Assembly: GCF_026914265.1 (NCBI RefSeq) | Contig: NC_069135.1 | Span: 38,244,946 to 38,308,945, forward strand | Direction: 5' to 3' | Origin: Mya arenaria | Lineage: Eukaryota > Mollusca > Bivalvia > Myida > Myidae | DNA length: 64,000 nucleotides | Part shown: positions 12,250 through 64,000 of the stretch, in pieces | Position numbering within the stretch: the first letter of the stretch is position 1 | Layout of the letters: every line of letters begins with the position of its first letter | Position numbers and translations under genes: made by a program | The notes under the pieces: model-generated | The model's input: only the letters and a program-made list of their open reading frames with translations | What the model was told of the DNA's origin: nothing | The model's database searches: none

Positions 12250-14658
12250 ATTCAAAAAATACAAACAGAAGGAGATGTTAGATAAATATCGTTTTTACAG
12301 AAACCTTGTTCAGAGAGAAGTAATTAAGGCCAAATCGGAATATATGTCAAACAAGCTGGAAGAAAATAAAAATGATCCAAAAAAGCTGTGGTCAGATTTA
12401 AAAAATCTTGGATATAGTAGTAAAAGTAAATCTTCTCCAAATATTGTTTTGAACATTGATGATGAAAATTGTTTTGAACCATGTAAGATTGCAAATCACT
12501 TTAATACTTTTTTTACTACTGTAGCCTCAACTTTAGTAAAAAAACTACCTTTGCCCTTCAATTTGTTTAACTATGAGTCTGACTATTTTAAACGATTTTA
12601 TAAAGATAGAAATCCTGACTCTGTTAAATTTAAACTTCACACTGTTAGTGAAGAATACATTTACAAGGAACTATGTAAACTAAATTGTTCAAAAAGCACA
12701 GGGTTAGATAACATTCCTGCAAGATTTTTAAAAGATGCTGCACCATTTTTAAAGATACCAGTAACATTTCTGATAAACAGTTCTATCACAAGTAACATTG
12801 TACCATCTGAACTCAAAAATGCTAAAGTTAAACCATTGTTTAAGAAAAACAACAGATCTGATGTTTCAAACTATCGACCTGTAAGCATACTATGTATAGT
12901 TTCAAAAATCTTAGAAAGAGTTGTATACAACCAACTAGAATCTTTTCTTGTTAAACATGGATTATTATACGAACTTCAGAGTGGTTTTAGATGTAACTAT
13001 TCAACTGACTCCTGCCTAATTCATTTGACCGACCATATAAAAGAACAAAATTCCAAAGGTCTATATACAGGAATGATTATGCTGGATCTTCAAAAGGCGT
13101 TTGATACCGTAGATCACAAAATTCTATGTCAGAAGTTAAAAGAAATTGGTGTGGATTCAATTGATTGGTTTCAATCATATTTATCTGGACGTAAACAAGT
13201 TTTCAATGTAAATAATACAATGTCTGAATTCATGAACATCTCTTGTGGCGTTCCTCAAGGAAGCATACTTGGACCGTTGCTGTTTTTATGCTATGTCAAT
13301 GATATGAGTATAAGCATAAGTGAAAAATGTAAATTAATATTATATGCAGATGATAGTGCTATCCTTTTCTCACACAAAGATCCGTCTGTTATTAGTAATG
13401 TACTCGGCAAGGAACTTGAAAACTGTAGTAAGTGGTTAGTTGACAACAAACTGTCTTTGCATCTTGGAAAAACAGAATGTATTTTATTTGGGTCTAAAAG
13501 AAAACTAACAAAAGTTGATAGCTTTAATGTAAACTGCAATGGCCATATCATAAAACCTAAACAATCTGTTAAATATCTTGGAAATATACTGGACAATGAT
13601 CTCAGTGCTGCATCTATTGTTAACAATATTGTCAGTAAAGTTAATTCTAGGCTAAAATTTTTATATAGACAAAATCGTTTTTTAGATATGAATCTAAGAA
13701 GATTGTTATGTAACTCCTTAATACAATGCCATTTTGACTATGCATCGACATCTTGGTACAGTGGTATATGTAAACAATTCAAGAACAGATTACAGGTCAC
13801 TCAGAACAAAGTTGTCAGATTTATTTATGGCTATGATTGTAGAACTTCCCTGAAAGTCTCGGCTTTCAGTGATATTGGATGGCTTAATATAGAAAATAGG
13901 ATAAAGCAACTACGACTAAACCATGTACATAAAATCTTAAATAGCAAATGCCCATCATACTTACATGAACATTTTACTTTAGTCTCATCCACACATTCTT
14001 ACAACAGTAGACATAGTGCTGGAAATTTTAAAGTGCCACAGGCTGACAGTTTTATATTAAATACTTTCTTTTATCAAGCAATCCAGGACTGGAACAGTCT
14101 TCCAATAAAGTTAAAAGAATTGAAAAATAAGAATACTTTTAAAAAAGAAGTGAAATCACATCTCATTGTTGGTATGAAATGTGCAGAAATGGAAGATTTC
14201 CTTTTTTATTAATTGTTATTCATTTAATCTTGCATATCAGTCCAAAGATTTTTGTCATATTATGCTAAAGTGTCATATGGTTTTAACAGTCGGTTGCATT
14301 ATAACTGTAAAAGTTCGATATCAAACATTTAATCATTCTTTAACTGGTCAAGAGTACATGCATGTTATTTTTGTATAAGTAAACCTAATTTAAACAGCTT
14401 ATAACTGAGATCTTGGCAAATAATTATATTTGTCATAAGGACCCCATTGGAAATAAGTTGAATAACTTTAATGGGTTATCCTGTGTTATATATTTGTCAC
14501 ATTGAATTAAATCTTTGTTAACGCACGTATGTATCCAAAGCATTCTAATGATGTTGTGCTTTAGTATAGATATCATCACTAATACTTTGTTAATCAGTCT
14601 GTGTTATAACTTTATGAGATATTTGGTTTGTTACAATGACATATATATGCACGAATAA

Positions 14659-17128: not shown

Positions 17129-17195
17129 TAGTTTATAATTTGATCAACATTTTAATTTTTTGAATTAATGAACACCATGGTTTTCTTTTCTTCAG

Positions 17196-17852
17196 ATTGA
17201 TTATAAAGAAAGAGAGATGTTTTCACTGAAATCAATCTGGAAGCCTTGGATTGGCGGTGATGCCAACAAGCCTCCTGGAAAGGATGAACACATGGTAATA
17301 GTGGATTCACTCATGTTAGAGCTCGAGTTTCACATACGAGAGCAGGAACAGATTCTCAAAGATCGTGAACAGGAAGAAAGAAGACGAATAACTGGTGTTG
17401 ACTATAGCTGGCTCGTCAGTGCTCCTGTGAAACAGTATGAAATTCCCCACCTTGAAAGATTGGAACTAGAGGATCTTTGCTACAGAGTTAAGCCACCAGA
17501 ATGTGGTAAAGTTATATCACTCTTCAGAGATTCAATTCTCAATGAGCCAAGAGTTTGTGATATTCCTAAGATTCTCAAAGCTTGTATTCGTCAAGTGGTC
17601 GAACAAAGACCTAAGGAGGAGACTCTAACTGACTGGGTTACGAAAAGGACATCGAGTCTTATAAATATGAAAATACGGCCTTCGACTAAGATTACACCAT
17701 TCCACAAAGAAAGTGATGACGTGGAGAGCAATACAACAATTGAAACCATATCAAGCCATGTAGATTTGATTACACCTAGTGGTGCCCATAGAAACAACCA
17801 ATCATTATCATACCACTCACAACCGCACGATTTTGACTCACTGCCAGTTTAG
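17196..17852 (+). CDS. RD3-like: RD3-family protein, single coding exon
   Basis: The coding frame is 17217-17852 (211 aa); the exon probably starts at 17196 after the acceptor TTTTCTTTTCTTCAG. RD3 of vertebrate photoreceptors binds and inhibits retinal membrane guanylate cyclases and helps their trafficking. Family landmarks here: an N-terminal amphipathic coiled-coil segment (about residues 27-55), 'GVDYSWLVSAP' (60-70; vertebrate RD3 has GVDYSWLAS), 'ERLELEDLC' (80-88), 'CGKVISLFR' (96-104), and a following helix to about 130. The C-terminal third is polar and diverges. Length is close to the human protein (195 aa). The coding part is uninterrupted, with an upstream noncoding exon implied by the acceptor. 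Function in guanylate cyclase control is inferred from family membership. Confidence 0.85.
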   Translation: MDYKEREMFSLKSIWKPWIGGDANKPPGKDEHMVIVDSLMLELEFHIREQEQILKDREQEERRRITGVDYSWLVSAPVKQYEIPHLERLELEDLCYRVKPPECGKVISLFRDSILNEPRVCDIPKILKACIRQVVEQRPKEETLTDWVTKRTSSLINMKIRPSTKITPFHKESDDVESNTTIETISSHVDLITPSGAHRNNQSLSYHSQPHDFDSLPV

Positions 17853-21330: not shown

Positions 21331-21340
21331 GAATCTTACT

Positions 21341-22083
21341 TACTGATTGATCACATCGCTTACTGATATATCACATCACTTACTGATATATCACATCACT
21401 TACTGATATATCACATCACTTACTGATTGATCACATCGCTTACTGATATATCACATCACTTACTGATATATCACATCACTTACTGATTGATCACATCACT
21501 TACTGATTGATCACATCACTTACTGATTGATCACATCACTTACTGATTGATCACATCGCTTACTGATATATCACATCACTTACTGATTTATCACATCACT
21601 TACTGATTGATCACATCACTTACTGATTGATCACATCACTTACTGATATATCACATCACTTACTGATTGATCACATCACTTACTGATATATCACATCACT
21701 TACAGTGATATATCACATCACTTACTGATTGATCACATCACTTACTGATTGATCACATCACTTACTGATATATCACATCACTTACTGATTGATCACATCA
21801 CTTACTGATATATCACATCACTTACTGATATATCACATCACTTACTGATTGATCACATCACTTACTGATATATCACATCACTTACTGATATATCACATCA
21901 CTTACTGATTGATCACATCACTTACTGATTGATCACATCACTTACTGATATATCACATCACTTACTGATATATCACATCACTTACTGATTGATCACATCA
22001 CTTACTGATTGATCACATCACTTACTGATATATCACATCACTTACTGATATATCACATCACTTACTGATTGATCACATCACTT
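21341..22083. repeat. 37-unit 20-bp satellite array with two alternating variants
   Basis: The unit is CTTACTGATNNATCACATCA. Eighteen units have TTG (variant A, containing TGATTGATCA), eighteen have TAT (variant B, containing the perfect palindrome TGATATATCA) and one has TTT. A 2-bp insertion (CTTACAGTGATA) at about 21,701 shifts the phase once. A and B units are interspersed in short runs. Invariant spacing and near-perfect units indicate recent amplification. It is not a CRISPR: there are no unique spacers. Confidence 0.95.
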
Positions 22084-22561
22084 ATGACACATGCATCTTT
22101 TGCTGTTTTTATGCAGTTTTACAATTCGAAATGTACTGGGGTTGTCTACCATGTATAAACCCCCAGTAAGTTTAAAAATAGCGTCAGTATATTTATATGC
22201 AACCATTAATAGATATGATTTAAACTGGGAAACCATTATGCGCTATTTTAAATTGAGAAAAACAAATGAGACCGCAACATGATGGTTGCGTTTATTATTT
22301 CAAGCATTTTAAATGATGTATAATCGGCCTCCAACTAGCTCGCAATGACAATTCTAGACTTGTTCTGATGAAATACTGTATAAGCCGAATTTTTGATCAT
22401 CTGGTGTCTAGCCCCTTTAATGTTTGCTATTTATAGTTGTGTATGTTTGAAAAGTTCTAGTCTACTTTGCAATTGTTAACATATCACTTATGTTGTTTAA
22501 AGCTGTTTAATTGGATATTAAAATGTGACAAAACTATCAGCTATTTGTTGTCTATAGTTAA

Positions 22562-25690: not shown

Positions 25691-26525
25691 ATCTGTTTCT
25701 TTAAGTCTTCCAATGTCTGGATTTGACTGAGAATTGCAGTCACTTCTATTTTATGTCACTGATGGCATTTATACACAATGTAAGTCGTGATGGCGTCACG
25801 ATGGGGTCAAGGCGTCACGTCGGGTTGAAGGCGTCACGTCGGGGTAAAACCATACTTAAGCCAAAAGGCGCGGGCAGACCTTGATAAACTCAAATAAACA
25901 GATTAGTTTATTATTGTATTGATTCTTTAAGATGTTGATGTCTGATGACCTCATATAATTTGGGCTATTTGTATCATTCAATAGGATGTTCAACTTAAGC
26001 CTGGTTAAAACAAAAAGTTTGGTAAGGGTTACATCATTTTCAAAACAGGTTGGGTAACTAAGCTTTTTTTATTAGGCTCTATGAAAGAACGTTATTGCAA
26101 TCATTGGAGAATAGTGTTAAAGTAATCTTCTGTATAAAGCTTTAATGGTTTTAAACTACACATTAAAACACACACATTTTTTTTACCAACTGACTATAAA
26201 AACGGTAGGGTCGGCGCCTTTTTCGTTGGTAGGGTCGGGTAAACCCAACCAAATGTATTTTTCTTAGGCCTTAATAATATTTAAATTAGTGGACTAAAAC
26301 ATATTACAGATTATGCTATGCAAGTTTGTATTTTTGTTCTGTTACTGAACTGTAAATGGATGTAGTGTTATATACTACACATCTTCGATACCCACTTTAA
26401 ATGTATCTTCAGCTTAAGTATACTCTTAGTTCAGAAGCATATTTGGCTTACAAAATATATCTGGATTTACAGTAATTATTAAAGTTCTTGCAAATTCCGC
26501 CATCCTTACGTCAAAAATGCTGAAA

Positions 26526-26578
26526 TGACGTTATTTCTGGTCTGGCAGTACAATGACGTCACTTCCGATTTGACGTCA
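26526..26578 (+). promoter_or_regulatory. Cluster of CRE sites before the Ig gene
   Basis: Two perfect TGACGTCA palindromes (26554-26561 and 26571-26578) plus one imperfect TGACGTTA (26526-26533) lie within 56 bp just upstream of the preferred ATG at 26582. This suggests cAMP/CREB-ATF-type control; it also argues that the first in-frame ATG (26525) lies within regulatory or leader DNA. Confidence 0.5.
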
Positions 26579-26581
26579 ACA

Positions 26582-27547
26582 ATGGCTGTTACGCTGTTAA
26601 ATATGTGTGTCTTCCTGACTGCCTTGTTCATGATTTGCATTTCATTTAGTTCGGCAAGAAGTGGTTATCCGAATTTACATCAAAGACAAAGACCTACATC
26701 TAAACCTCCAACACCTGCAGTGGAATTACGGAACATGTACCATTCGCTGGACTTGAAACCTCTGCAACGCATGACCCTAGACTGCAACAGCAGAGAAATG
26801 GAACAGCTTTTGCAGAAGCATCCGTTTGTTGAACATCGCTGGAAACACAATGGGGAAGCGTTTAAGTTGCAACCGGTTAGAATGGAATACATGACGGAAA
26901 AACTGACAATAAACAATCTGATGCCACAGGACAGTGGAACATACCATTGTATAGCCGAGGAGCCATCGGCCACGCAACAAGTTGTCGCAATTTACGCCAC
27001 TGTTATTGGTAGGCTTTTGAAGTACACTTACAGAGGTGACGACCTTGAACTTGACTGTCTGAGTAACGAATTCGGCAAACTATACCCGAAAGCCATACGC
27101 TATTGGATCGATCCGAAAGGAAAACGGGTTTTTGAAAAACCGGCAATCGATAATCTTGAAACATTCCCCAAAGCTGATGACAGATTGGCGGGAAATTGGA
27201 CGTGCTTTGTTGAGGATCCAGTTGTTCCAAGAAAATGGACGACAGCGAGGCTCCAGGTTTTCATCAGTCCTATACCATCTTTTGTGAAGAGAACAGAATT
27301 ATTTGTGAAAGGTAACAAAATCGTAAGTTGTATTATAATAGTTTTGATAATAGCAGCCTTCCTAATGCTTTCCCAACTGGTTGCAAAACTTTCGGATAAG
27401 AGTGAAAATCGCGTGAAAAAGGACATGAAACACATGAAAAACGTTTTGGGCCTCAAGGATAAGAAGAAAGGGTCAGACGACGATGATGACGATGATGATG
27501 TTGACATTAATGATGGAATGCCTTTGTTGAACACCACGAAGACATAA
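26582..27547 (+). CDS. Two-Ig-domain type I membrane protein, single exon
   Basis: 321 aa from the ATG at 26582 (context GTCAACAATGG, with a hydrophobic signal sequence directly after it); an upstream in-frame ATG at 26525 would add 19 residues ahead of the signal and is less likely. Order: signal peptide (about 1-26), a Pro-rich linker, an Ig-like domain (Cys in 'TLDCNS', Trp in 'HRWKHNG', and 'DSGTYHCIAEE'), a second Ig-like domain ('LELDCLS', 'RYWIDPKG', 'GNWTCFVEDP' with an NWT glycosylation site), one transmembrane helix ('IVSCIIIVLIIAAFLML'), then a basic stretch and a D-rich tail. A cell-surface adhesion or recognition role is plausible; I do not recognise an orthologue. No introns interrupt it, unusual for Ig proteins. 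Confidence 0.8.
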   Translation: MAVTLLNMCVFLTALFMICISFSSARSGYPNLHQRQRPTSKPPTPAVELRNMYHSLDLKPLQRMTLDCNSREMEQLLQKHPFVEHRWKHNGEAFKLQPVRMEYMTEKLTINNLMPQDSGTYHCIAEEPSATQQVVAIYATVIGRLLKYTYRGDDLELDCLSNEFGKLYPKAIRYWIDPKGKRVFEKPAIDNLETFPKADDRLAGNWTCFVEDPVVPRKWTTARLQVFISPIPSFVKRTELFVKGNKIVSCIIIVLIIAAFLMLSQLVAKLSDKSENRVKKDMKHMKNVLGLKDKKKGSDDDDDDDDVDINDGMPLLNTTKT

Positions 27548-32566: not shown

Positions 32567-32639
32567 GTCATACTAACATAATTATGTACAAATAAACATA
32601 AGGCACAGCTGCACCACGGAAGTGTCGACAGCTCATCTT

Positions 32640-33225
32640 CTTTGCAACACCGATATCTGGTGGAAGTGGCGTTTGATAGACTTGTAACTTCTTCGCATCA
32701 TAGAAAAGAGGTGGAGCTGGCGTTTAGTAGGCGTTTAACTTCTTCGCATGACCGATAAGTGGTGGGGCTGGCGTTTAGTAGGCGTGTAACGTCTTTGCAA
32801 CACCGATGATTGGTGGAGCTGGCGTTTAGTAGGCGTTTAACTGCTTCGCAACATCGATAAGTGGTAGGCGTGTAAATTCTTCGCAACATCGATAAGTGGT
32901 GGAGCTGGCGTTTAGTAGGCATGTAACGTCTTTGCATCACCGATGATTGGTGGAGCTGACGTTGAGTAGGCGTGTAACTTCTTCGCAACATAGATAAGTT
33001 GTGGAGATGGCGTTTAGTAGGCGTGTAACGTCTTTGCATTACCGATAATTGGTGGAACTGGCGTTTAGTACGCGTGTTACTTCTTTGCAACATCGATAAG
33101 TGGTGGAGCTAGCGTTTGGTAGGCGTGTAACTTCTTTGCAACATCGATAAGTGGTGGAGCTAGCGTTTGTAAGCGTGTAACTTCTTTGCAACATCGATAA
33201 GTGGTAGAGCTAGCGTTTGGTATGT
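32640..33225. repeat. 51-bp minisatellite, about 11 units
   Basis: The unit core is 'GTGGAGCTGGCGTTTAGTAG' followed by GCGTGTAACTTCTTTGCAACATCGATAA, with SNP and small-indel variation. Because 51 is a multiple of three, the minus strand stays open over long stretches (32698-33093, then another frame to 33262), giving a 17-residue repeat such as 'YTPTKRQLHQLSVMQRR'. No start context, splice signals or flanking gene support coding. Confidence 0.9.
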
Positions 33226-33239
33226 GTGTAACTGGGTAC

Positions 33240-34233: not shown

Positions 34234-34241
34234 AACTGAAA
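34234..34241. repeat. Target-site duplication AACTGAAA, left
   Basis: A perfect 8-bp match to 42414-42421 on the far side of the transposon. Eight-base duplications are the rule for P and hAT superfamilies. Confidence 0.9.
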
Positions 34242-34789
34242 CACAGGTGGTTAGCGTGTGGTAATTTTTTTTTATCTATTTTTATATATAATATACTGAA
34301 AGGTAAACAACTCAATGTATGGGAAAATGATACCAACATTAATCTGACCGCTGTTTTTCCCTTAATTATGCACCGATTTTAACAAACAAGGTACTGTTAC
34401 AAAGCTAACACATTTATCTACACAAAAACAATAGGCAATACTCCATTTTTTCAAACTACATACAAGTTTAAGCCTTCCAAACGTCCGAAATCGTAACTAG
34501 GAAAACATCTGATTGCATTTTGGTTCGTGGCTACAAAGGCTTAACATGCCATAGCCCGATGAATTGTAACGAAATTAGGGCGTGTGTAGATGCAAACGAT
34601 GGAACACAATAAGTGTCCACCAGTAATAACTCATGATATCAACATACTAACTTTATACGGACCTTTTATTTGCAACGAAGCGATCGACGACAGCTACACC
34701 GCCATGTCAGTTTTATGCGCATGCGCAAATTTTTGTAACGAGTAATTTCATTGGTTGTCAACTGATAGCGTGTTGGGCCCGGCTTCGCT
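34242..34789 (+). repeat. Left terminal inverted repeat of P-type element (548 bp)
   Basis: Inverted match to 41864-42413, ending at ...GGGCCCGGCTTCGCT. Contains an NRF1-type palindrome at 34716-34727. Confidence 0.9.
34716..34727. promoter_or_regulatory. NRF1-type palindrome in left TIR
   Basis: TGCGCATGCGCA, the consensus of the NRF1 family, which marks many animal promoters. Its mirror copy in the right TIR sits upstream of the helicase gene. Confidence 0.45.
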
Positions 34790-34977
34790 AATACATGTAT
34801 GTATACAAGTGGGAATCATACTACCGGAAATAGAAAACTGAAAGTGAAAGTAGACGATTTGTTTATTGAAGAAATTTATAAACGACCAGTTGTTGCAACG
34901 GTATTTGTACAAAATGTGCGTTGTTACATGGTATGTATAAACTCAAATGCATGTGCAATAATATGTGATAAGAACAG

Positions 34978-37027
34978 TCAACAACCTCCACAATCGTTAC
35001 AGTAAAATTTAACACCAGATCGATTAAATTTTTGCCACTTAAAATGATTTTGAAGGCCTGCACATTTACGATGTAGCCATCCATCACATCCGTCGCAGCT
35101 AATCCATTCAGTTAGATGCGGGGCCTGATACTCTGTCAATTTACATATTTTACAAGATTCAGTACTTTCATTGACATGACTGTGTTCTATTTCATTCACA
35201 CTCAACACATTTATGTCATCTTCTGAACTGTCATTCAAGTCCTGTACTTTTCTTTTTGTGATACGGGATGATGCCCCGCCAACAGATCCACTGGAAGTTC
35301 CAGGCTTTGGCTCCTCATGCTGTAGTGTAGATGTTGGATGTTTAGATTTTGAGCCTTTTGAGGACACCCTGATCTGCTTTCGATGTGCCATTTTTTTCTC
35401 AACATTGAATGACTCCAGCATATCCTTCCTAAATTGATTTAGCATTACCATGAGAAAGAGTTTTATAATTTTTTTGTATATGGTTCCAATTATACTGTCA
35501 TTTAATTTTCCACTTTGACAAGTTTCATCAAATTCTTCTTTTTGCAAAAAACTTTGTCTGACCACAGTACAAAATTGTTGATTAAGATCATTGTCACTAA
35601 TAATGTTGTCTGTTAGAACCTGGTACAAATTGCTCCCATATTTATTCAAATGTTCATCAATTAAAAATTCTAAACACTTTTCAGTCAACCTTTGGAATAC
35701 TGTAAACACCTGATCTGATATATTGGTAAGTGACCTATTTTGGACTTGCCTTCTACTAACATCTAGAAGTGACTGTGTGTTACTTGTGGTTTGTTGAATA
35801 TAGTATTCTTCTACCTTTAGTGCATAACATTGACTGCTAACACAGCTTCGTGGTATTGGACCTGGCTGCTTTCATCTGTCTTGTACATATAACTAGTTTT
35901 CTTTTCCATGTACTTGTGTCTTACCTTTGCAACACAGTAACCTCCATTATATCTAACCCTTGCATCTGAACTATTAGTTACTTTTCTATCTGTTATCTTC
36001 CGGGCACTAACTGGAAATAGCTCAGCTTTTTTCCCTAGTATATATTTTCTTATCTGAACTGAGATATTAAAGCATATATGTAAGTGTTCTTCAGTAAAGA
36101 TCACATTTTCAAAGAAATTTAGACAATTCATTCGAAACTCAGAACTTGTGTGATACTCATGCACTTTAGAGTAGAATTCTGTTTGCTGTTTACTTTGCAC
36201 AGGTTTTGAAGGATCAATCTTTAAATCTTCAACCATTTTTGAGAGCTTAGTGTATTCTTGCTTACAGAATTGGATGTATTTAGTCTGATTTATTATTTTC
36301 AGTATATTGTTAGTGTTTAGCTGTTTAGTTGTTTGAACATTTTTACATTGAAGTGAACTCAACATGTCTTCAACATTTAAATCATTTGGTAGATCTGGTA
36401 AATCACTTGGAGTTGAATCAATCATACGGATCACATCATCAAACTCCAAGTCAAAATCCTCATCCTCCTGTACCTGCTCATCCAGTTCTGTCACTTCCTC
36501 AATAATTTCCTCCACTGTAAGGTTCTGTGCTGTCAGGGAACAGCTGTCTGTTAATCTGTGAAAATAAACTAGTTACTTTTAAAGTCTGCAGCAATTGTTA
36601 AAATGAAAACTTATTTAAACAGTTTATAGTGAACAATGGAGTCTGCAAATTTTTGCTCGATGATATGGATTTGCACTGGTGGCACATATAACTTAAATGT
36701 GAGGTAAAGGGTATCTCATATTTAATAAGTATAGAGGTTTTAACATTCAGATTTGAGTGCACAAACATGAATGAAATACTTTTAATTAGTATTTTATATA
36801 AATTGTAGAGATAAACTGTTGTATGTGCATTTTGGAGTTTTTATATATCAAAGACATGGCATAATATTAATGACATTTTTTTGGTGTCACAGACAAGACA
36901 ATACTACATAAATTACATCTTACTCAATAGAAACATATTTAATGTTCATCAACCAGTGTAGATCCAGATCAGTCTGCACATTCCTCAAAATGATATTTTG
37001 TTTCTTTATTGTTGTCAATAAAAACAT
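34978..37027 (-). CDS. PHD-finger protein of the P-type element
   Basis: Read on the minus strand. The main exon begins at 36555 after a strong acceptor (TTTATTTTCACAG) and runs to a stop at 34978. A plausible first exon is 37027 to 36924: ATG, 34 codons, GTAAGA donor, with matching phase 2; tentative. The N-terminal part is acidic ('EEVTELDEQVQEDEDFDLEF'), the middle unfamiliar, followed by a basic/Ser-rich linker. The C-terminus holds a C4HC3 PHD finger: 'CKIC', 'ISCDGCDGWLHRKC' and 'FYCNDC', ending about 3 residues later. PHD fingers usually read histone H3 tails, so a role in target choice or chromatin access is inferred. The frame shifts by one base near 35,820-35,840 (equivalent to a single-base deletion). 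No catalytic domain is visible. Confidence 0.7.
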
Positions 37028-39472
37028 AACAAATATCAAGCATTCTGATTATAATCAAATACTGCATTTTTCATTACGAATCACATAATATTGTGTTTTC
37101 TATTTAAGGTTATTGACACGCATTGTGGAAGACACAAGTGGACGTGTGGAAGTCAATCATCTCTACGATGCATATCATTTTGAGATGCAGGAGTCCGGGT
37201 CAAGCCACGCAGCATCCAAACGTGTATTTGTGGACCATATCACAAAGGTTTATCCAAATGTAGGAAAGGAAAGGAAACAAAAATCCCGTAATTCCATGAC
37301 AACCACATATATTGGGTTACGGTTGAAGCCAGTAGATATGAATGAAGTAGAACTATTTGATTTTGTCAAAGTGAAAGGAATACTGGAAACAACAGTGTGT
37401 ACATCTATCAAAAGTGAATCAACAAGTGTTACTTGTGAAATTGACTCAAATACAAAAAGCAATGGCAACTGTATTAAAAAATGCATATTTTTCCAAAGTA
37501 ATGGTGAATTTCAGCTTAGCATTAGTGGAACACAAATAGATCTAAATGCTGTAAACATTTCTAAAAACTACCAGTCCACTTCAGAATGTTTAAACACTGT
37601 TATTAAAGCAGTTCAATTAATTCCTCTGTGTGAAGGTGTGACTGTATCTAAAAATGTGTCTTTGACTAGATTTCATGTTCTGGAAAATATTACAGACAAA
37701 TATGGTAACTGCAAAAGATCTGTAAGAACAAAACTTTGTAATAGGGTGATATCACTCAATGCTTTTAGCAGCACTTGTATTAAGTGTAAGAAGATGACAA
37801 TGATAGGTCCAGAAAATGTGAGTGTTAATATGTCAGTGAATCAGGAAAATTGGAACAATAAAGAAAAGTTAGAATCATTAACATCAGCAACACATGACAA
37901 TGACATGGAAATAAATGAAAATGTGAAAAAGCTTATACCAGGTGCAACAAAGGAAATGATCGAGCTTATTGTTAATCAAGCCAAAAATGCCGACAAAGAC
38001 CCACGAGGAAGACGCTGGAGTGAAGGCATGATAAAGGTGTGTCTCCAGTGGTACTGCCGCAGCCCCCAGTCATATGAAAGTTTTCGGGAGAGTCAGTACC
38101 TGATCATGCCATCACAATCCACTCTTATTCAATACAAGAACCGTGTTAGGCAGCATGTTGGCTTCGACAAGGATATGCTAACATGGATGTTAGACGAAGC
38201 GAAACTGCGAAATCTTCTCCCAGAAGAATACTATGGGGGCATCATCATAGATGAAATGTCAATTCAAAGTGACATTCAAATGTGCAAGAATGGTGATGTT
38301 ATTGAATTATCTGGCTTCACTGATTTAGGAGAAGAGGGAAACTTCTCGAACACTATGCGGAAAGGAAAAAATGAAAAGGTACTAGGTACACATGCCCTGC
38401 AATTTGTATTCCTTGGTATAAATGGCTTTCGCTTTCCATTTGCGCACTTTATTTCGGACGGTGTTCAAGCACCTGAGATTTATTCACTGTTCTGGGAAGC
38501 TGTTGACATTTTAAATTTGTATGGTTTTACCACATCTTACATTTGCATGGACGGTGCTCAGAGTAACAGAACATTCATGCATATGAATACAAGCTATGAG
38601 AAAAAATTCAAAACATGTTCTTCTTGTACATTTGGAGAAGTGGTTTTCATAATGGACTGTAAGCATGTGATAAAAAAGATCAGAAATAATGTGTTAAAAA
38701 GTGGTCAGCATAAAACCTCTACCAGATTATTAACTCTTCCCAGCCAGCACACAATTCAGTGGCAGATGTTCATAGACAGCTACAAATGGGACAAAACTAA
38801 TGGCATAGCTCTTCACAGAAAACTAAGTGGTGACCATATTTTCCCTACAAACCAGCGGAGGAAGTTTTGGACAATGATATGCTTTATCTTATGTCACAGT
38901 ATCAACAAACTCTGGGAGCAAATGGTTCAGTTTTAGATGGAGTAATCGACTTACTGAAACATACTTCAAAACTTATTGACATTTTTAAAGACATGCGTCC
39001 TATTAAATCACTGGATGATCAAAGACTACATGAACTTCTTGAAATTGCAAATTGGTTTCATGAATGGCAAGAATGTTCTTTAGGTGCTACAGCATTGTCT
39101 GCAAAGGAACGTCAGAAACAATTAATGTCACATCAGTGTCATGAGGACATACAATCATGCATAATTGGATTTTGTGAATTAGCAAAGGTCTTCATTACCC
39201 CAGGACTACTCAACTCGGATGTAATAGAAAATACATTTAACCAACAGAGGGCAACATATCATGGCGCAAATAGTAACCCTAATGCAAACCAGTATCGGCA
39301 GGCTCTAAATAGTATAATATTAGGACAAAATACAGTCTCTCAAAAAAGTAATGCTGGCAAAAATAAATATGCTGCTTCTCCATACAACTGTTCAATCAAA
39401 AAGACAGATACAGCTCGAAAACGAAAAGTTGAATCTACAGAATATAAGAAAATAAAAGTCATACGAGTGTGA
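36636..39472 (+). CDS. P-superfamily transposase with RFX-like DNA-binding domain
   Basis: Exon 1 is 36636-36703 (ATG in AACAATGG; donor GAG|GTAAAG) and exon 2 is 37109-39472 (acceptor TTTTCTATTTAAG); phases match. About 808 aa. Residues ~20-100 align with the RFX winged helix ('LYDAY' for LYNHY, 'HAASKRVFVDHITKVYP' for NAASFGKLIRSVF, 'TTTYIGLRLK' for SKYHYYGLRIK). The usual THAP zinc finger is missing. Then comes the P-type core: 'RRWSEGMIKVCLQW', 'GIIIDEMSIQ' (Asp ~404, likely first catalytic residue), 'MDGAQSN' (Asp ~504), 'DCKHVIKKIRNNVL' (~539; THAP9-like proteins have a similar HLIKNLRNN), the GTP-binding-insertion-like region, and 'VIENTFNQQRATYHG' near the C-terminus (the ENLF-type acidic motif). 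The frame changes by one base near 38,850-38,866, equal to a 1-nt deletion, between 'HIFPTNQ' and 'EEVLDNDM'. No intron explains it. Confidence 0.85.
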
Positions 39473-39821
39473 TTATTGTAGGAATTGTGTGCCACAAACT
39501 AAGTTTTGAGATAACTTTTTCATAAATCATGCCCATCTTGGAAGATTGAGTGACTGAGAAGTGAACTTAAGTGCATATGTACTGAAGTGGATATTATATA
39601 TACATAGATACATCAAATGTGTTATGCTGCATGGGTAGCAAATTTCATTACATAACATTAAATCATTATGAGAATAATACATATGGATTGATAAAGGTCT
39701 ATGAGAAGGCCTATGAGAAGGCCTGCAGCACTAAGTGACTACCCATTGTGTGGATACAGCCCCAGCTTAAGCAGCAAGATAAATGGTAAGTACCAGTACT
39801 TATATATTTGGTACACAATAT

Positions 39822-41799
39822 TTACCTAGTTTCTTGACCGCAGCAACAACTTCTGTCATCATGTAGCACCCCAGACTCCTCACTCAGGAAGTTAATGACA
39901 TCTGGTGGTTGAGGGATGACACATTTCTTCATATTAAAGTTTATAACTTGTAAGTTCTGTGAACTTCTGACACGTCCACGAACTTCTGCTACGCCTAGTT
40001 GTCCTGGCTTGAAAATCTGGTGACAATCAATCGCCACACTGAAACAGATACATATCATGTTAGAAATGAACAATTGATTTTATATTTTTCTTATTGACAA
40101 ATTATGGTATATATATGTACAGTCATAATTAGGGGTAAAAGTGTTTTTTGGGGCAACACATCCCTGCCTAGCCAAAACGTGCGCCCCTAGGTGTTTAAGA
40201 CACTACTTCAGAACTTTCTGATCTTTTCACCAAACCAAACATTATTTTAGGCCTTAATCAAGCCTTCACATTCAATGCAGTCTGATTGGGATAATGGGGA
40301 CACTCAACTAGAGTGTAGCAGTTATTATGTATTACTGATTGATTAACAAACCTTTCTAGAGTCAGTCCCTGCGACTTATGTATACTAATTGCAAAACTTA
40401 GTTTGACTGGGTACTGCACTCTGGTGGCAACATCACAGTTCTTCCTTGGACTGAATACTGAAATTTAAAAGCATTTATTAGCCATTTTTCAAGAGCAAGT
40501 GAATATTGTGTACAAATATAATAATAAACTATGCGGTTCAAAGGCGCTAGGGACGTGTGTAACATAATTACTGATACTGTATTCGTACCCATATATCAGA
40601 GCAGCATTAACTTCGAAACTTTTAAGTAATTGAACCGGCTTAAAAATAGAAAATTAATTTATTTCAATAAGGTTCTTTGCGTTTCTGTTGGTAAGAAATT
40701 TTCAAGAGTTGTTGTGTAAATTAGCCATTTTCTGAAACAAAGCCATACATATTTATAATTATAGTCAATGACTGATGCTTTATTCTGGTAAATAATTTAA
40801 AATTTTGACTTTAAAAATGCTTACCGGAAAATTTCATCTTTTCAATAGGAACTTTAAGCTTGCATGAAGGAAAGTCTATAATTAGTCCATTTTCTGTGAT
40901 GTCATGAACAGTTCCTTGTAGCCCATTAACAAGTTTACCTGTTAAGTTTCGAATTAGGATAATAGGTGCACCCTTTTTAAGCCACAATTTTTTTGGAGCT
41001 AGCATTTGATTTAAATGTTTTCTATCACCATTATCTTCGGACACAAATTCATACATTGCACCGGGAAAATCTTCATTTTTTTTCTGTTGTATGTGTCTAC
41101 TTGGTCGTTTCTAGCAAAAAGCTTGATGGTATCTGTTCTTGCAGGGATACTTCTGTTTAAACTGGTTAGGAACTTTTCTGTTTCATTTGTTATTGTTCCA
41201 ACTGATACCTCATGGATAGCTTTGATAAGTTGTGGGTCTGATTGTCGATTCATTTGTGTGAGCACAACTCTGTGAGTTAATAATCTGCTAAACAGTTCAC
41301 TTTTAAAGCAAAATTCCCCAGATTCAGCATATAAGTAGTTTGGCACTGGTGGTAACTGTGTAAAATCACCACAGAGAATCAGCTGAATTCCTCCAAATAA
41401 AAGTTCAGGGTTTTTCATTTTACAGACTTCATTGAGAGAGTCAAATAATTTTCTACTTAACATTGAACACTCGTCAATTACAAGTACATCAGTTTCTAAT
41501 ATTGTTTTTCTCACATCTAAGTACTGGGCATTATGCTTCACAATATTGGCAATATCGTTCACCCCATACCTGCCGTCCCCAATACCTGACCACCTGTGTA
41601 TTGTTGTTGCATTTGCATGCAAACAACATGCTATCCCCGTTGTTGCTGTTACCGACACATTTTTTCCCTTACTTTTTAGAGTTTCGACAATATGTTTAAT
41701 GACGTGGGTTTTCCCAGTGCCTGCGGCCCCTAAAATTAAAAGATTATGTCCAATGCAGCTTATTTCGATGGCTTTTATTTGTTCTGCATTAAGATTCAT
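39822..41799 (-). CDS. Pif1-family helicase of the P-type element
   Basis: A three-exon minus-strand gene. Exon 1 is 41799-40825 (donor CCG|GTAAGC), exon 2 40457-40352, exon 3 40038-39822 (stop TAA); phases agree. About 430 aa. Superfamily 1B motifs: Walker A 'GAAGTGKT' (24-31), Walker B 'VLVIDECSML' (105-114), 'GDFTQLPPV' (144-152), then exon 2 'SFAISIHKSQGLTLE' (motif VI) and exon 3 'VAIDCHQIFKPGQLGVA'. The usual 'SRVR' block reads 'EVRGRVRSS' here, a small divergence. Pif1 helicases are 5'-3' DNA helicases; related ones occur in Helitrons and other mobile DNA. The frame slips by one base in a T8 run at 41076-41083 (A8 on the coding strand; nine would restore the family sequence 'FPGAMYEFV'). 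The start codon is 65 bp inside the right TIR, so the TIR probably supplies the promoter. Confidence 0.85.
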
Positions 41800-41863
41800 T
41801 TTTGTTTACAGATTTGACATATCGCGGGAAATATTTGGTACCCCTCTACTCAACTGCACTATC

Positions 41864-42413
41864 AGCGAAGCCGGGCCCAACACGCTAACAGTTGACAGCC
41901 AATGAAATTACTCGTTACAAAAATTTGCGCATGCGCATAAAACTGACATGGCGGTGTAGCTGTCGTCGATCGCTTCGTTGCAAATAAAAGGTCCGTATAA
42001 AGTTAGTATGTTGATATCATGAGTTATTACCGGTGGACACTTATTGTGTTCCATCGTTTGCATCTACATACGCCCTAATTTCGTTACAATACATCGGGCT
42101 ATGGCATGTTAAGCCTTTGTAGCCACGAACCAAAATGCAATCAGATGTTTTCCTAGTTACGATTTCGGACGTTTGGAAGGCTTAAACTTGTATGTAGTTT
42201 GAAAAAATGGAGTATTGCCTATTGTTTTTGTGTAGATAAATGTGTTAGCTTTGTAACAGTACCTTGTTTGTTAAAATCGGTGCATAATTAAGGGAAAAAC
42301 AGCGGTCAGATTAATGTTGGTATCATTTTCCCATACATTGAGTTGTTTACCTTTCAGTATATTATATATATAAAAATAGATAAAAAAAAATTACCACACG
42401 CTAACCACCTGTG
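41864..42413 (-). repeat. Right terminal inverted repeat of P-type element (550 bp)
   Basis: Inverted copy of 34242-34789 with about five substitutions and an extra TA. The inner end carries an NRF1 palindrome and an inverted CCAAT box upstream of the helicase ATG. Confidence 0.9.
41926..41937. promoter_or_regulatory. NRF1-type palindrome upstream of helicase
   Basis: TGCGCATGCGCA about 127 bp upstream of the helicase start, with ATTGG (CCAAT inverse on the coding strand) nearby. This resembles a housekeeping-type TATA-less promoter embedded in the TIR. Confidence 0.5.
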
Positions 42414-62164: not shown

Positions 62165-64000
62165 CTAGAAGGCAGTGACGGGCCTCTTCGCCAAGTATTC
62201 CTTTATCTTTGGTTGTTGCTCGACCTTCTTTCTGTTGGCGTCCAATAGTTTGAAATCTTTCAAGATGCCCACACATTGAGAATTTTCTATGTATGCGTAA
62301 AGCATAAGGTCAGCAATCGTCAGCTGAAGAAAAGTTGAGCTTTCAGATAAAAAGAAATACAGTTTATCATAGTTGTAGAGTTTAAGCAAAATCAACGACG
62401 TCATTTCCGAAATGACATTCCGTTATTTTATAATTTTGAGCGCTGTTCTGAAAAATTAAAATAAAAGTAAAAATAAAAAGAAGGGTCTTTGGTTTCAGTG
62501 AAAGATCGCAATATATTTCACCTCTTGAATATTTTAAGTATAGCTTTTGACGCTCACTCGGTTAAATATTATAAGTATCTTCCATGGCCGAGAGTGTAAG
62601 ATAGATTCATTCCGATCCGAGCGTAGGGTGTTTAGCGGAAACGAGGTTTACCGGGATGAACCTATCTTACACGAGCAGCTATGGTAGATGCTTTTTCTCC
62701 TACCTCAGTTTAACAAAATTAAGTAAAAATGTATTTTTTTGCTGGAACTCTTTTGTGCTTAGTGAAAATAATTGCGTACGGATAATTCGTGGTTGTCATG
62801 GATATTCGCGCAGTGATTCAGAGTATGTAAATGGTCTGATCGGTCTTTATATAGTTCTAAGAAGAGTGAAACATTATTTCTTGAAAGGTGCGTGAAAACT
62901 GTTTATGGTGACATTTGAAGCGAGAAATAATTAACTAGCGTTCTAAATATTGCAATAGACAATAAATATAGACAAAGTTTCCATGATGCGCTACAGACGA
63001 CAGTCTTCAACAAGGGAGGTAATAACAATGTGGTGACCAATAAAAGAAGTTCCATACGGGCATTTTATCTTCGCCCGTGGGCAAGATAAGAATTTCTAGC
63101 ATGGTTAAATTATTGGATCTAATTATCTGAGGTGGGAGAAATAACGATCTCACACTGAAAACAATTATTATCCTCTATTTATATCGCACAACCGAGCACA
63201 AATAAAGTCCGAGTCTTCCGTCTTATGTTCCCCCGGAAGACAAAAATGTTTAGTCGTATTTTCTACATATGGTACAGCAGGAATTTGCTGATATGCATAT
63301 ACTATAAGCTTTAATTATTTAATATATCCAGACATTGATGTTCAGAGAAGACTGTTTTGATGTTTTGGTATTATATATCCGTCCACTTACAGAAGATCCA
63401 ACAGCGAAGTCGCCCTTTCCGCCTTCCTTCACCAATTTTTCCAAACATTCGAGAAATGTTTTTGCTTTTCCTTGCAGGAATTCTTCACGTTTCTTGGCCT
63501 GAAATTGTGCAAACATCAAAATTATTACTATAAACAAATCGGTTATGCATCAAAATTATTACTATCAATAAATCGGTTATGCATCAAAATTATTACTATC
63601 AACAAATCGGTTATGCATCAAAGTTATTACTATCAACAAATCGGTTATGCATCAAAATTATTACTATCAACAAATCGGTTATGCATCAAAGTTATTACTA
63701 TCAACAAATCGGTTATGCATCAAAATTATTACTATCAACAAATCGGTTATGCATCAAAGTTATTACTATCAACAAATCGGTTATGCATCAAAGTTATTAC
63801 TATCAACAAATCGGTTATGCATCAAAGTTTTTAATTACCCTGAAACGACACATCAAAAGATACACACCCTAAACACATATGTAGTGGTGGTATTCATTAT
63901 TGGTTTTAATTTTATCTAAGAACGATTTAGCTAATCGGATTGCTCGATATTAAAAACCCGGACTAACACAGTGACTGCAGTTAGTTATGTTTGACAATAA
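62165..64000 (-). CDS. Sigma-class glutathione S-transferase, gene C (3' part)
   Basis: Exon 5 at 62323-62165 (stop TAG) and exon 4 at 63498-63391 are seen; exons 1-3 lie beyond the window. Both exon lengths (159 and 108 nt) match genes A and B. It reads 'KKREEFLQGKAKTFLE' ... 'GDFAVGSS' | 'LTIADLMLYAYIENSQ' ... 'YLAKRPVTAF'. It is the most diverged of the three. Splice sites are intact, so it is likely functional, but the catalytic N-domain is not visible here. Confidence 0.9.
62571..62694. repeat. Imperfect inverted repeat in GST C intron 4
   Basis: 'GAGTGTAAGATAGATTCATTCC' faces 'GGGATGAACCTATCTTACAC', with further pairing outward (TTCCATGGCC / CTATGGTAGA). Confidence 0.6.
63517..63826. 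repeat. 34-bp minisatellite in GST C intron 3, 9 units
   Basis: The unit is AAATTATTACTATCAACAAA plus TCGGTTATGCATCA, with only A/G variation at one site (AAAATTAT or AAAGTTAT). It starts ~20 bp from the exon 4 acceptor. Frames across it are artefacts. Confidence 0.95.
63887..64000. mobile_element. Short MITE, 'GGTATTCAATATTCAACTTA' family, cut by window end
   Basis: 'AAGAACGATTTAGCTAATCGGAT' region and the following 'GACTAACACAGTGA' match 32,402-32,566. Confidence 0.5.

Follow-up and report, generated by a model that had tools for sequence, protein, structure and literature searches.

The element and its copies

The 64,000-nucleotide window analyzed here (Mya arenaria assembly GCF_026914265.1, contig NC_069135.1, positions 38,244,946 to 38,308,945) contains a complete DNA transposon of 8172 bp (window 34242–42413) with three genes, which encode a transposase, a PHD-finger protein and a PIF1 helicase (Table 1). 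The sequence-only reading of this locus had proposed that the transposase belongs to the P superfamily and bears an RFX-like winged helix instead of a THAP finger. The results described below point to a P-lineage element whose winged helix, of the RFX/Pox_D5 type, occupies the position of THAP.

The element is bounded by long terminal inverted repeats (TIRs), which differ from each other by six mismatches and one 2 bp indel. A search of the host assembly (1.216 Gb, 18 contigs) with these repeats revealed three further full-length copies (two on contig C15 and one on C5), one fragment and three miniature loci. The four full-length copies, including that in the window, are 8118–8207 bp long with pairwise identities of 99.1–99.5%, which shows that the family moved recently. 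Each of them is flanked by a perfect 8 bp target-site duplication (AACTGAAA, AATGAAAT, CGCGAAAT and ATATTACC). An 8 bp duplication, as expected of the P superfamily, also accompanies a 9.8 kb element of a second family (loci L056/L058; TCCTTGAG) and two independent miniature insertions. GAAA occurs inside the duplications of three of the four full copies (window 34234–34241, L019 and L020), a sample too small to define a preference. In comparison with the other three full copies, each of the three genes in the window copy has at least one private frame-changing length difference.

Table 1. Coordinates of the element, its genes and its sequence motifs (window positions unless a contig is given)
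Feature	Position	Strand	Evidence or remark
Left target-site duplication AACTGAAA	34234..34241	none	
Right target-site duplication AACTGAAA	42414..42421	none	
Left TIR, 552 bp	34242..34793	+	
Right TIR, 554 bp	41860..42413	-	
Terminal motif CAMAGGTGGYYAGCRYGTGGTWA, 23 bp, left end	34242..34264	+	Genome pattern search; common to second family
Terminal motif, right end	42391..42413	-	Genome pattern search
Palindrome TGCGCATGCGCA in TIR	34716..34727; repeat 41926-41937	none	Probably promoter sequence
PHD-finger protein gene, two open reading frames	34978..36572	-	PHD PF00628 E=4.8e-5; this copy has a broken frame
Putative transposase exon 1 (22 codons + 2 bases)	36636..36703	+	Starts with ATG; GT donor at 36704; in phase with exon 2
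Transposase exon 2 (winged helix, middle domain, helix-turn-helix region, RNase H core)	37109..39472	+	Frame broken in this copy
RFX/Pox_D5-type winged-helix domain	37110..37334	+	Pfam, profile, hhalign, model
TNP-like RNase H N-terminal domain (PF21787)	38157..38579	+	Pfam E=2.7e-13
First catalytic Asp (IDEMSIQ), counterpart of D230	38250..38252	+	Second-family core alignment and conservation
Second catalytic Asp (MDGAQSNR), D303 position by motif alone	38550..38552	+	Sequence and conservation
Catalytic Glu (SDVIENTF), counterpart of E531	39227..39229	+	Second-family core alignment
PIF1 helicase gene, several open reading frames	39822..41805	-	PIF1 PF05970 E=5.1e-31; Pif1_2B E=4e-8; frame break in this copy
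Probable second-family miniature	C11:3295396-3295600		Paired end motifs
Probable second-family miniature	C13:22096338-22096793		Paired end motifs
Probable second-family miniatures	C16:41248264-41248466; C16:41949168-41949372		Paired end motifs
Probable second-family miniatures	C17:20992849-20993637; C17:22343594-22344382		Paired end motifs

Catalytic core and N-terminal domain of the transposase

The transposase gene consists of a putative short first exon and a long second exon, separated by a probable intron (36704–37108) as judged from its sequence. An AG acceptor is found at the same place, directly 5′ of the winged-helix domain, in nine of the eleven loci compared; it is absent in L034, and L039 is out of register. 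The range originally assigned to the winged-helix transposase, 36636–37400, includes the domain, which lies inside exon 2, yet consists mostly of the probable intron. The motifs on which that assignment was based are present in frame at 37110–37334 and are fused to a P-type core.

The core, which had likewise been recognized from its motifs, matches the Pfam TNP-like_RNaseH_N model (PF21787) in the window, and the corresponding core of the second family, an unbroken frame of 526 amino acids (aa), matches it with E=1.4e-17. The best PDB sequence match of the second-family core is the Drosophila P transposase (DmTNP, 6p5a; whole-sequence E=7.9e-5). Three of the four matched pieces are co-linear, and the ordered pieces place the Asp and the Glu on D230 and E531, respectively, where the catalytic residues are D230, D303 and E531 according to the available text of PMC7776569. 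A TNP-like RNase H core with D, D and E, as in the P superfamily, is thus found, the second Asp by motif only. As to the GTP-binding insertion domain, one weak phmmer piece of the second-family core covers DmTNP 329–399. When the window protein was modeled up to the frame break, P transposase 6pe2 ranked first in Foldseek (E=3.7e-7), while RFX5 and RFX1 ranked 7 and 13 through the N-terminus (template modeling (TM) scores of 0.70 and 0.81 by target length). A middle domain (residues ~95–220, window 37392–37769) is predicted to be mostly β (predicted local distance difference test (pLDDT) of 68–89 over the block) and is common to the families; it has no named structure match among the 50 listed. 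A search of viral contigs with the transposase yielded no match.

The identity of the N-terminal domain was assessed by several comparisons. Read alone, the window domain matches a single listed Pfam family, Pox_D5 (PF03288; E=9e-6, 26.5 bits, above the cut-off of 21.4), and neither RFX_DNA_binding (PF02257) nor THAP; phmmer against the PDB up to E=10 gave no match. A profile of 11 sequences retrieved RFX5 as the best PDB match (E=0.02). With a profile of 18 relatives, chosen by their position beside the core and including added rows that already looked RFX-like, a possible bias, the three best PDB molecules were RFX5 (E=6.8e-8), RFX1 (E=0.0019) and ARID2 (E=0.08), the last of which presumably also carries an RFX domain. 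Pfam (E≤10) matched Pox_D5 in nine of these relatives, RFX_DNA_binding in four (best E=4.1e-5) and the CDC6 C-terminal winged helix in one (E=1.8e-4). The Pfam RFX model thus matches some relatives but not the window copy, which matches Pox_D5. Alignment of the domain with a three-sequence RFX alignment by hhalign gave a probability of 96.5% (E=7e-10). In a Foldseek search of 350,542 PDB chains, the AlphaFold model of the domain, built without templates (mean pLDDT 86.6), matched RFX5 (8zjr; E=1.2e-3, TM 0.65/0.67) and RFX1 (1dp7; E=3.6e-3, TM 0.70/0.77) at ranks 1 and 2, each with a probability of 1.00, followed mostly by PadR-like winged helices (E≥0.14). The proposed RFX-like winged helix at the THAP position is borne out by the profile and by these fold matches, and the fold of the model is of the RFX winged-helix type.

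The origin of the domain may nevertheless lie elsewhere. With slightly less than an even chance, it is the wing of a viral or mobile-element D5-type primase-helicase (Pox_D5) rather than a captured RFX domain, its likeness to RFX reflecting shared superfamily ancestry. Pox_D5 is the sole Pfam family for the window's own domain and is matched by half of the 18 relatives. Viral models match about as well as those of the PDB, beginning at E=1.9e-3, and phage helicases and primases account for many of the best matches that bear a name. Both the profile and the fold search of the PDB instead favor RFX5 and RFX1, and four relatives match RFX_DNA_binding, although the fold comparison is uneven because the PDB and viral libraries differ in content. 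A genome-wide Pox_D5 search is uninformative on this question, since it returned no matches and missed the window locus itself. As both RFX and Pox_D5 match the domain, "RFX/Pox_D5-type winged helix" is the safe name.

The absence of a THAP finger, stated by the sequence-only reading, agrees with the Pfam scans: no match was found in the sets of 8, 3 and 6 open reading frames (ORFs) scanned or in the 18 relatives. Accordingly, the N-terminal C2CH THAP of canonical P elements and THAP9 was not found in these ORFs. A THAP regular expression gave five matches in three sequences; these were duplicates or lay in frames off the transposase start and were not counted as THAP. It is very improbable that a THAP domain resides in an overlooked upstream exon and that the winged helix is merely additional. 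Such an exon could lie among the plus-strand ORFs of <60 aa upstream of exon 2, of which the scan covered the 22-codon exon 1; this exon is itself putative, being read from the sequence, and the genome contains many THAP domains. The PHD gene, however, occupies most of the upstream space, and no THAP was found in the three plus-strand ORFs of ≥60 aa that the element contains 5′ of exon 2. Furthermore, at 54 P-type loci, no THAP match listed (150 of 363 candidates scored) lies within 6 kb as measured between starts; the two closest are at 6.3 and 12.5 kb.

Lineage, partner genes and element ends

The transposase search of the genome gave at least 80 matches (75 of 158 candidates scored), which merged into 50 loci. 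A separate search with the N-terminal domain gave 17 matches, each at most 3 kb from a transposase match. With the profile of 18 relatives, the domain was detected in all of the 30 best-matching loci retrieved (L026–L055), which represent 27 distinct elements by grouping; 17 of these elements supplied rows to the profile and ten did not. Two of the ten are near-identical to the window element (L027; L028/L048), while the other eight (L031, L034, L038, L041, L050, L052, L053 and L054), several of which are close kin of profile rows, match with E values of 5e-11 to 9e-22. Since all 30 loci carry the winged helix, it marks a lineage and not a private swap. The term "domain swap" used at the outset is therefore too specific, and the source may be RFX factors or viral D5-type helicase domains. 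The transposases form a diversified P-type lineage with several related families in one genome. A P-type locus outside the 30-locus list, L068 (C5:53568200-53573200), has no winged-helix match. It encodes a coiled-coil-like stretch and matches the RNase H N, GTP-binding (PF21788) and RNase H C Pfam models, with no THAP in six ORFs.

Both partner genes recur with the transposase. The PHD match of the window protein (PF00628) scores 23.7 bits, just under the cut-off of 24, and that of the second-family relative scores 24.9 bits, above it. Searching for PHD relatives gave at least 75 matches (93 of 147 candidates scored), merged into 44 loci; 38 of these listed loci have a transposase at a distance of at most 20 kb, and in every case the two are on opposite strands (~0.2% by chance). 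Conversely, a PHD gene on the opposite strand is found at 38 of the 50 transposase loci, among the matches listed. PHD-protein relatives also occur in 1041-aa open frames at C2:45831189-45832556 and C6:27119031-27120398, which are much larger than those of the window family. The PIF1 gene, whose limit at 39822 is a reading of the sequence, was detected at eight loci belonging to three families (the window, L019, L020, L021, L056, L057, L065 and L066). A Helitron, considered because of PIF1, was ruled out by the TIRs and target duplications, and no HUH Rep Pfam match was found in eight ORFs.

The ends of the element share a 23 bp motif with the second family, the termini being CACAGGTGGTTAGCGTGTGGTAA in the window family and CAAAGGTGGCCAGCACGTGGTTA in the second family. 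A pattern combining both (≤2 mismatches) has 44 matches in the genome and one for the reversed control; matches of the two source families are expected by construction. Of the 44 matches, 32 are arranged as 16 pairs that face inward and delimit full-length or miniature elements. Pairs spanning 203–789 bp are probably second-family miniatures (Table 1). The miniature copies of the window family (L022, L023 and L024) are foldback structures of 109–117 bp that retain the outermost 54–60 bp of each end and are flanked by 8 bp duplications of their own; L023 and L024 look like one insertion in duplicated flanks. Since the miniatures keep only the outermost 54–60 bp, the remaining 490 bp of the TIR are dispensable if these copies moved in trans. 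No TIRs were found in the stretches covered of two further families (L063; L064–L067).

RFX proteins bind X-boxes, and TIR palindromes had been suggested as candidate targets of the domain. This suggestion was not borne out, as X-box scores in the TIRs are not clearly above those of shuffled sequences. The best X-box in the outer 60 bp is equaled by 122 of 300 shuffles for the window family and by 25 of 300 for the second family, the nearest to an excess; in the whole TIRs, the best is equaled by 79 and 67 of 100 shuffles, respectively. The whole window element contains two X-box matches at ≤1 mismatch, against a shuffle mean of 0.3, and both are internal. Two near-perfect X-boxes in L064 (positions 1359 and 1506, 147 bp apart) lie outside the shared element and are probably host sequence, because homology with the sister copies stops at L064:2426. 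The lack of X-boxes does not imply that the domain is unable to bind the ends, since its specificity may differ from that of RFX. The conserved terminal motif appears to be a better candidate binding site than the X-box.

The sole strong palindrome in the TIR, TGCGCATGCGCA, is absent from the second-family TIR and from the miniature copies. As the miniatures keep only the outermost 54–60 bp, their movement in trans would exclude it as a required site. Its right-hand copy precedes the PIF1 start by ~130 bp. In both TIRs the palindrome is accompanied by a GTAACNAGNNATTTCATTGG block, which recurs without the palindrome upstream of the second-family PIF1. The promoter-like block GTAACGAGTAATTTCATTGG in both window-family TIRs has a second-family copy at L056 ~1075; such a block is conserved upstream of PIF1 in the two families, whose TIRs otherwise do not align. 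The palindrome, which we take to be NRF1-like, and the adjacent block, which we regard as CCAAT-like, are probably promoter sequence.

End recognition and relation to known systems

In the P element, the transposase is anchored to the ends by its THAP domain, and the remaining steps fall to the helix-turn-helix (HTH), RNase H and GTP-binding domains, according to the available text of PMC7776569. Considering this precedent and our findings, the window element is best explained as a recently mobile P-lineage cut-and-paste transposon with three genes and no THAP found, in which the winged helix replaces THAP as the end tether; we put the probability of this interpretation at about 0.7. The winged helix would first tether the transposase to an end, probably at or near AGGTGGYYAGCRYGTGG within the outer 54–60 bp. 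The HTH region and the RNase H core would next bring the ends together, cleave them and join them with an 8 bp stagger, as P does. By analogy with their families, PIF1 would probably assist in DNA unwinding or repair once the element has been excised; the PHD protein would probably read chromatin or regulate transposition.

Several observations weigh against this interpretation. The pieces of the 6p5a match are individually weak (i-Evalues of 30 to 1200), and one of the four breaks the co-linear order. The long model is of poor overall quality (pLDDT 63, predicted TM score 0.41), and its match to 6pe2 has TM values of 0.23/0.28 with a root-mean-square deviation of 13.4. The Pfam models of the GTP-binding domain (PF21788) and the RNase H C-terminal domain match neither the window core nor that of the second family; as they do match L068, the transposase branch appears divergent. 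The domain model has no Foldseek match below E=0.001 in the PDB or the viral models, and the 18-sequence hidden Markov model does not detect the RFX exons of the same genome at E≤0.05. Among the matches listed, no transposase lies within 20 kb of six of the 44 PHD loci, and 12 of the 50 transposase loci lack a PHD gene. No PIF1 was found in the 10 kb stretches of L063 and L064, the latter of which loses homology with its sister copies on the PIF1 side; most other loci were covered with a flank of ~1.5 kb only. The end motif is absent from the same two stretches, which belong to two further families and whose ends may lie outside. Finally, DNA binding by the winged helix is putative, being assigned by analogy.

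The winged helix could instead bind host X-box-like sites or chromatin factors and thereby steer the element to targets or promoters, leaving end recognition to the HTH region and the core. This is an unlikely arrangement, although the repeats have no clear X-box excess, their shared end motif is unlike an X-box and, in P, the HTH region and core also contact DNA (PMC7776569, available text). In each of the 30 loci examined, the winged helix sits where THAP would be, and in P it is THAP that first tethers the ends (same text). The full-length insertion sites contain no X-box, and the GAAA-containing duplications are too few to judge. End tethering by the winged helix appears to be its most likely role, by analogy with THAP. 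Because the miniatures narrow the required ends to 54–60 bp, end recognition is directly testable.

P elements and THAP9 provide the standard example of transposition guided by THAP; in the present lineage, which has diversified within one genome, a different domain stands in that place. The lineage shares with DmTNP (6p5a/6pe2) and vertebrate THAP9 an RNase H core with D, D and E in the same order, an HTH region and 8 bp duplications. Unlike them, it has the RFX/Pox_D5-type winged helix in place of THAP, long TIRs, the extra PIF1 and PHD genes, a middle domain (~95–220) with no named match and a GTP-binding domain unrecognized by Pfam, which makes it a natural comparison for asking which parts of P transposition are fixed. 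Galileo of Drosophila is said to be a P-superfamily element with similarly long TIRs, whose transposase reportedly has a THAP domain and multiple binding sites in the TIRs, unlike the window element. The N-terminal domain has the fold of the RFX factors (RFX1 1dp7 and RFX5 8zjr), aligned over 73–74 columns, but with 20–23% identity, a position inside a transposase and no X-box excess in the element ends. With the D5-type primase-helicase C-terminal winged helix it shares the Pox_D5 match above cut-off and the viral model matches; no SF3 helicase or primase is seen attached, the helicase of the element being PIF1.

Given the PHD and PIF1 partners, one may ask whether the transposase works as a multi-protein machine. 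RAG1-RAG2-like transposons also combine an RNase H-type transposase with a PHD-containing partner, a likeness by analogy only; RAG2 carries a PHD as well as a Kelch part. Their transposase belongs to a different superfamily, and the window element additionally has PIF1. Tentatively, the lineage could be a separate three-gene P-type system in which the winged helix recognizes the ends, the PHD partner selects targets by reading chromatin and PIF1 acts in excision or gap repair, an independent division of labor resembling that of RAG1/RAG2 with its own helicase.

Consistent with the novelty supposed by the sequence-only reading, neither a P transposase with an RFX or Pox_D5 domain nor a P element with PIF1 and PHD genes was found in the literature searched; Repbase, which lay outside the search, may hold members of either kind. 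The available text of a bivalve survey counts P among 17 superfamilies and contains no occurrence of PIF1, helicase or THAP (PMC10294476), and that of PMC10027918 contains none of RFX or PIF1. KolobokP, a mollusc lineage with accessory proteins, was set aside, as it belongs to the Kolobok superfamily and the helicase mentions in the available text are RecQ (PMC9587614).

Outside the element, the window contains a reverse transcriptase ORF of 653 aa (12251–14212), an RD3-domain ORF (17172–17852) and an immunoglobulin-domain ORF (26483–27547). Tandem arrays are present at 21338–22084 (20 bp units), 32637–33233 (51 bp) and 63514–63833 (34 bp).

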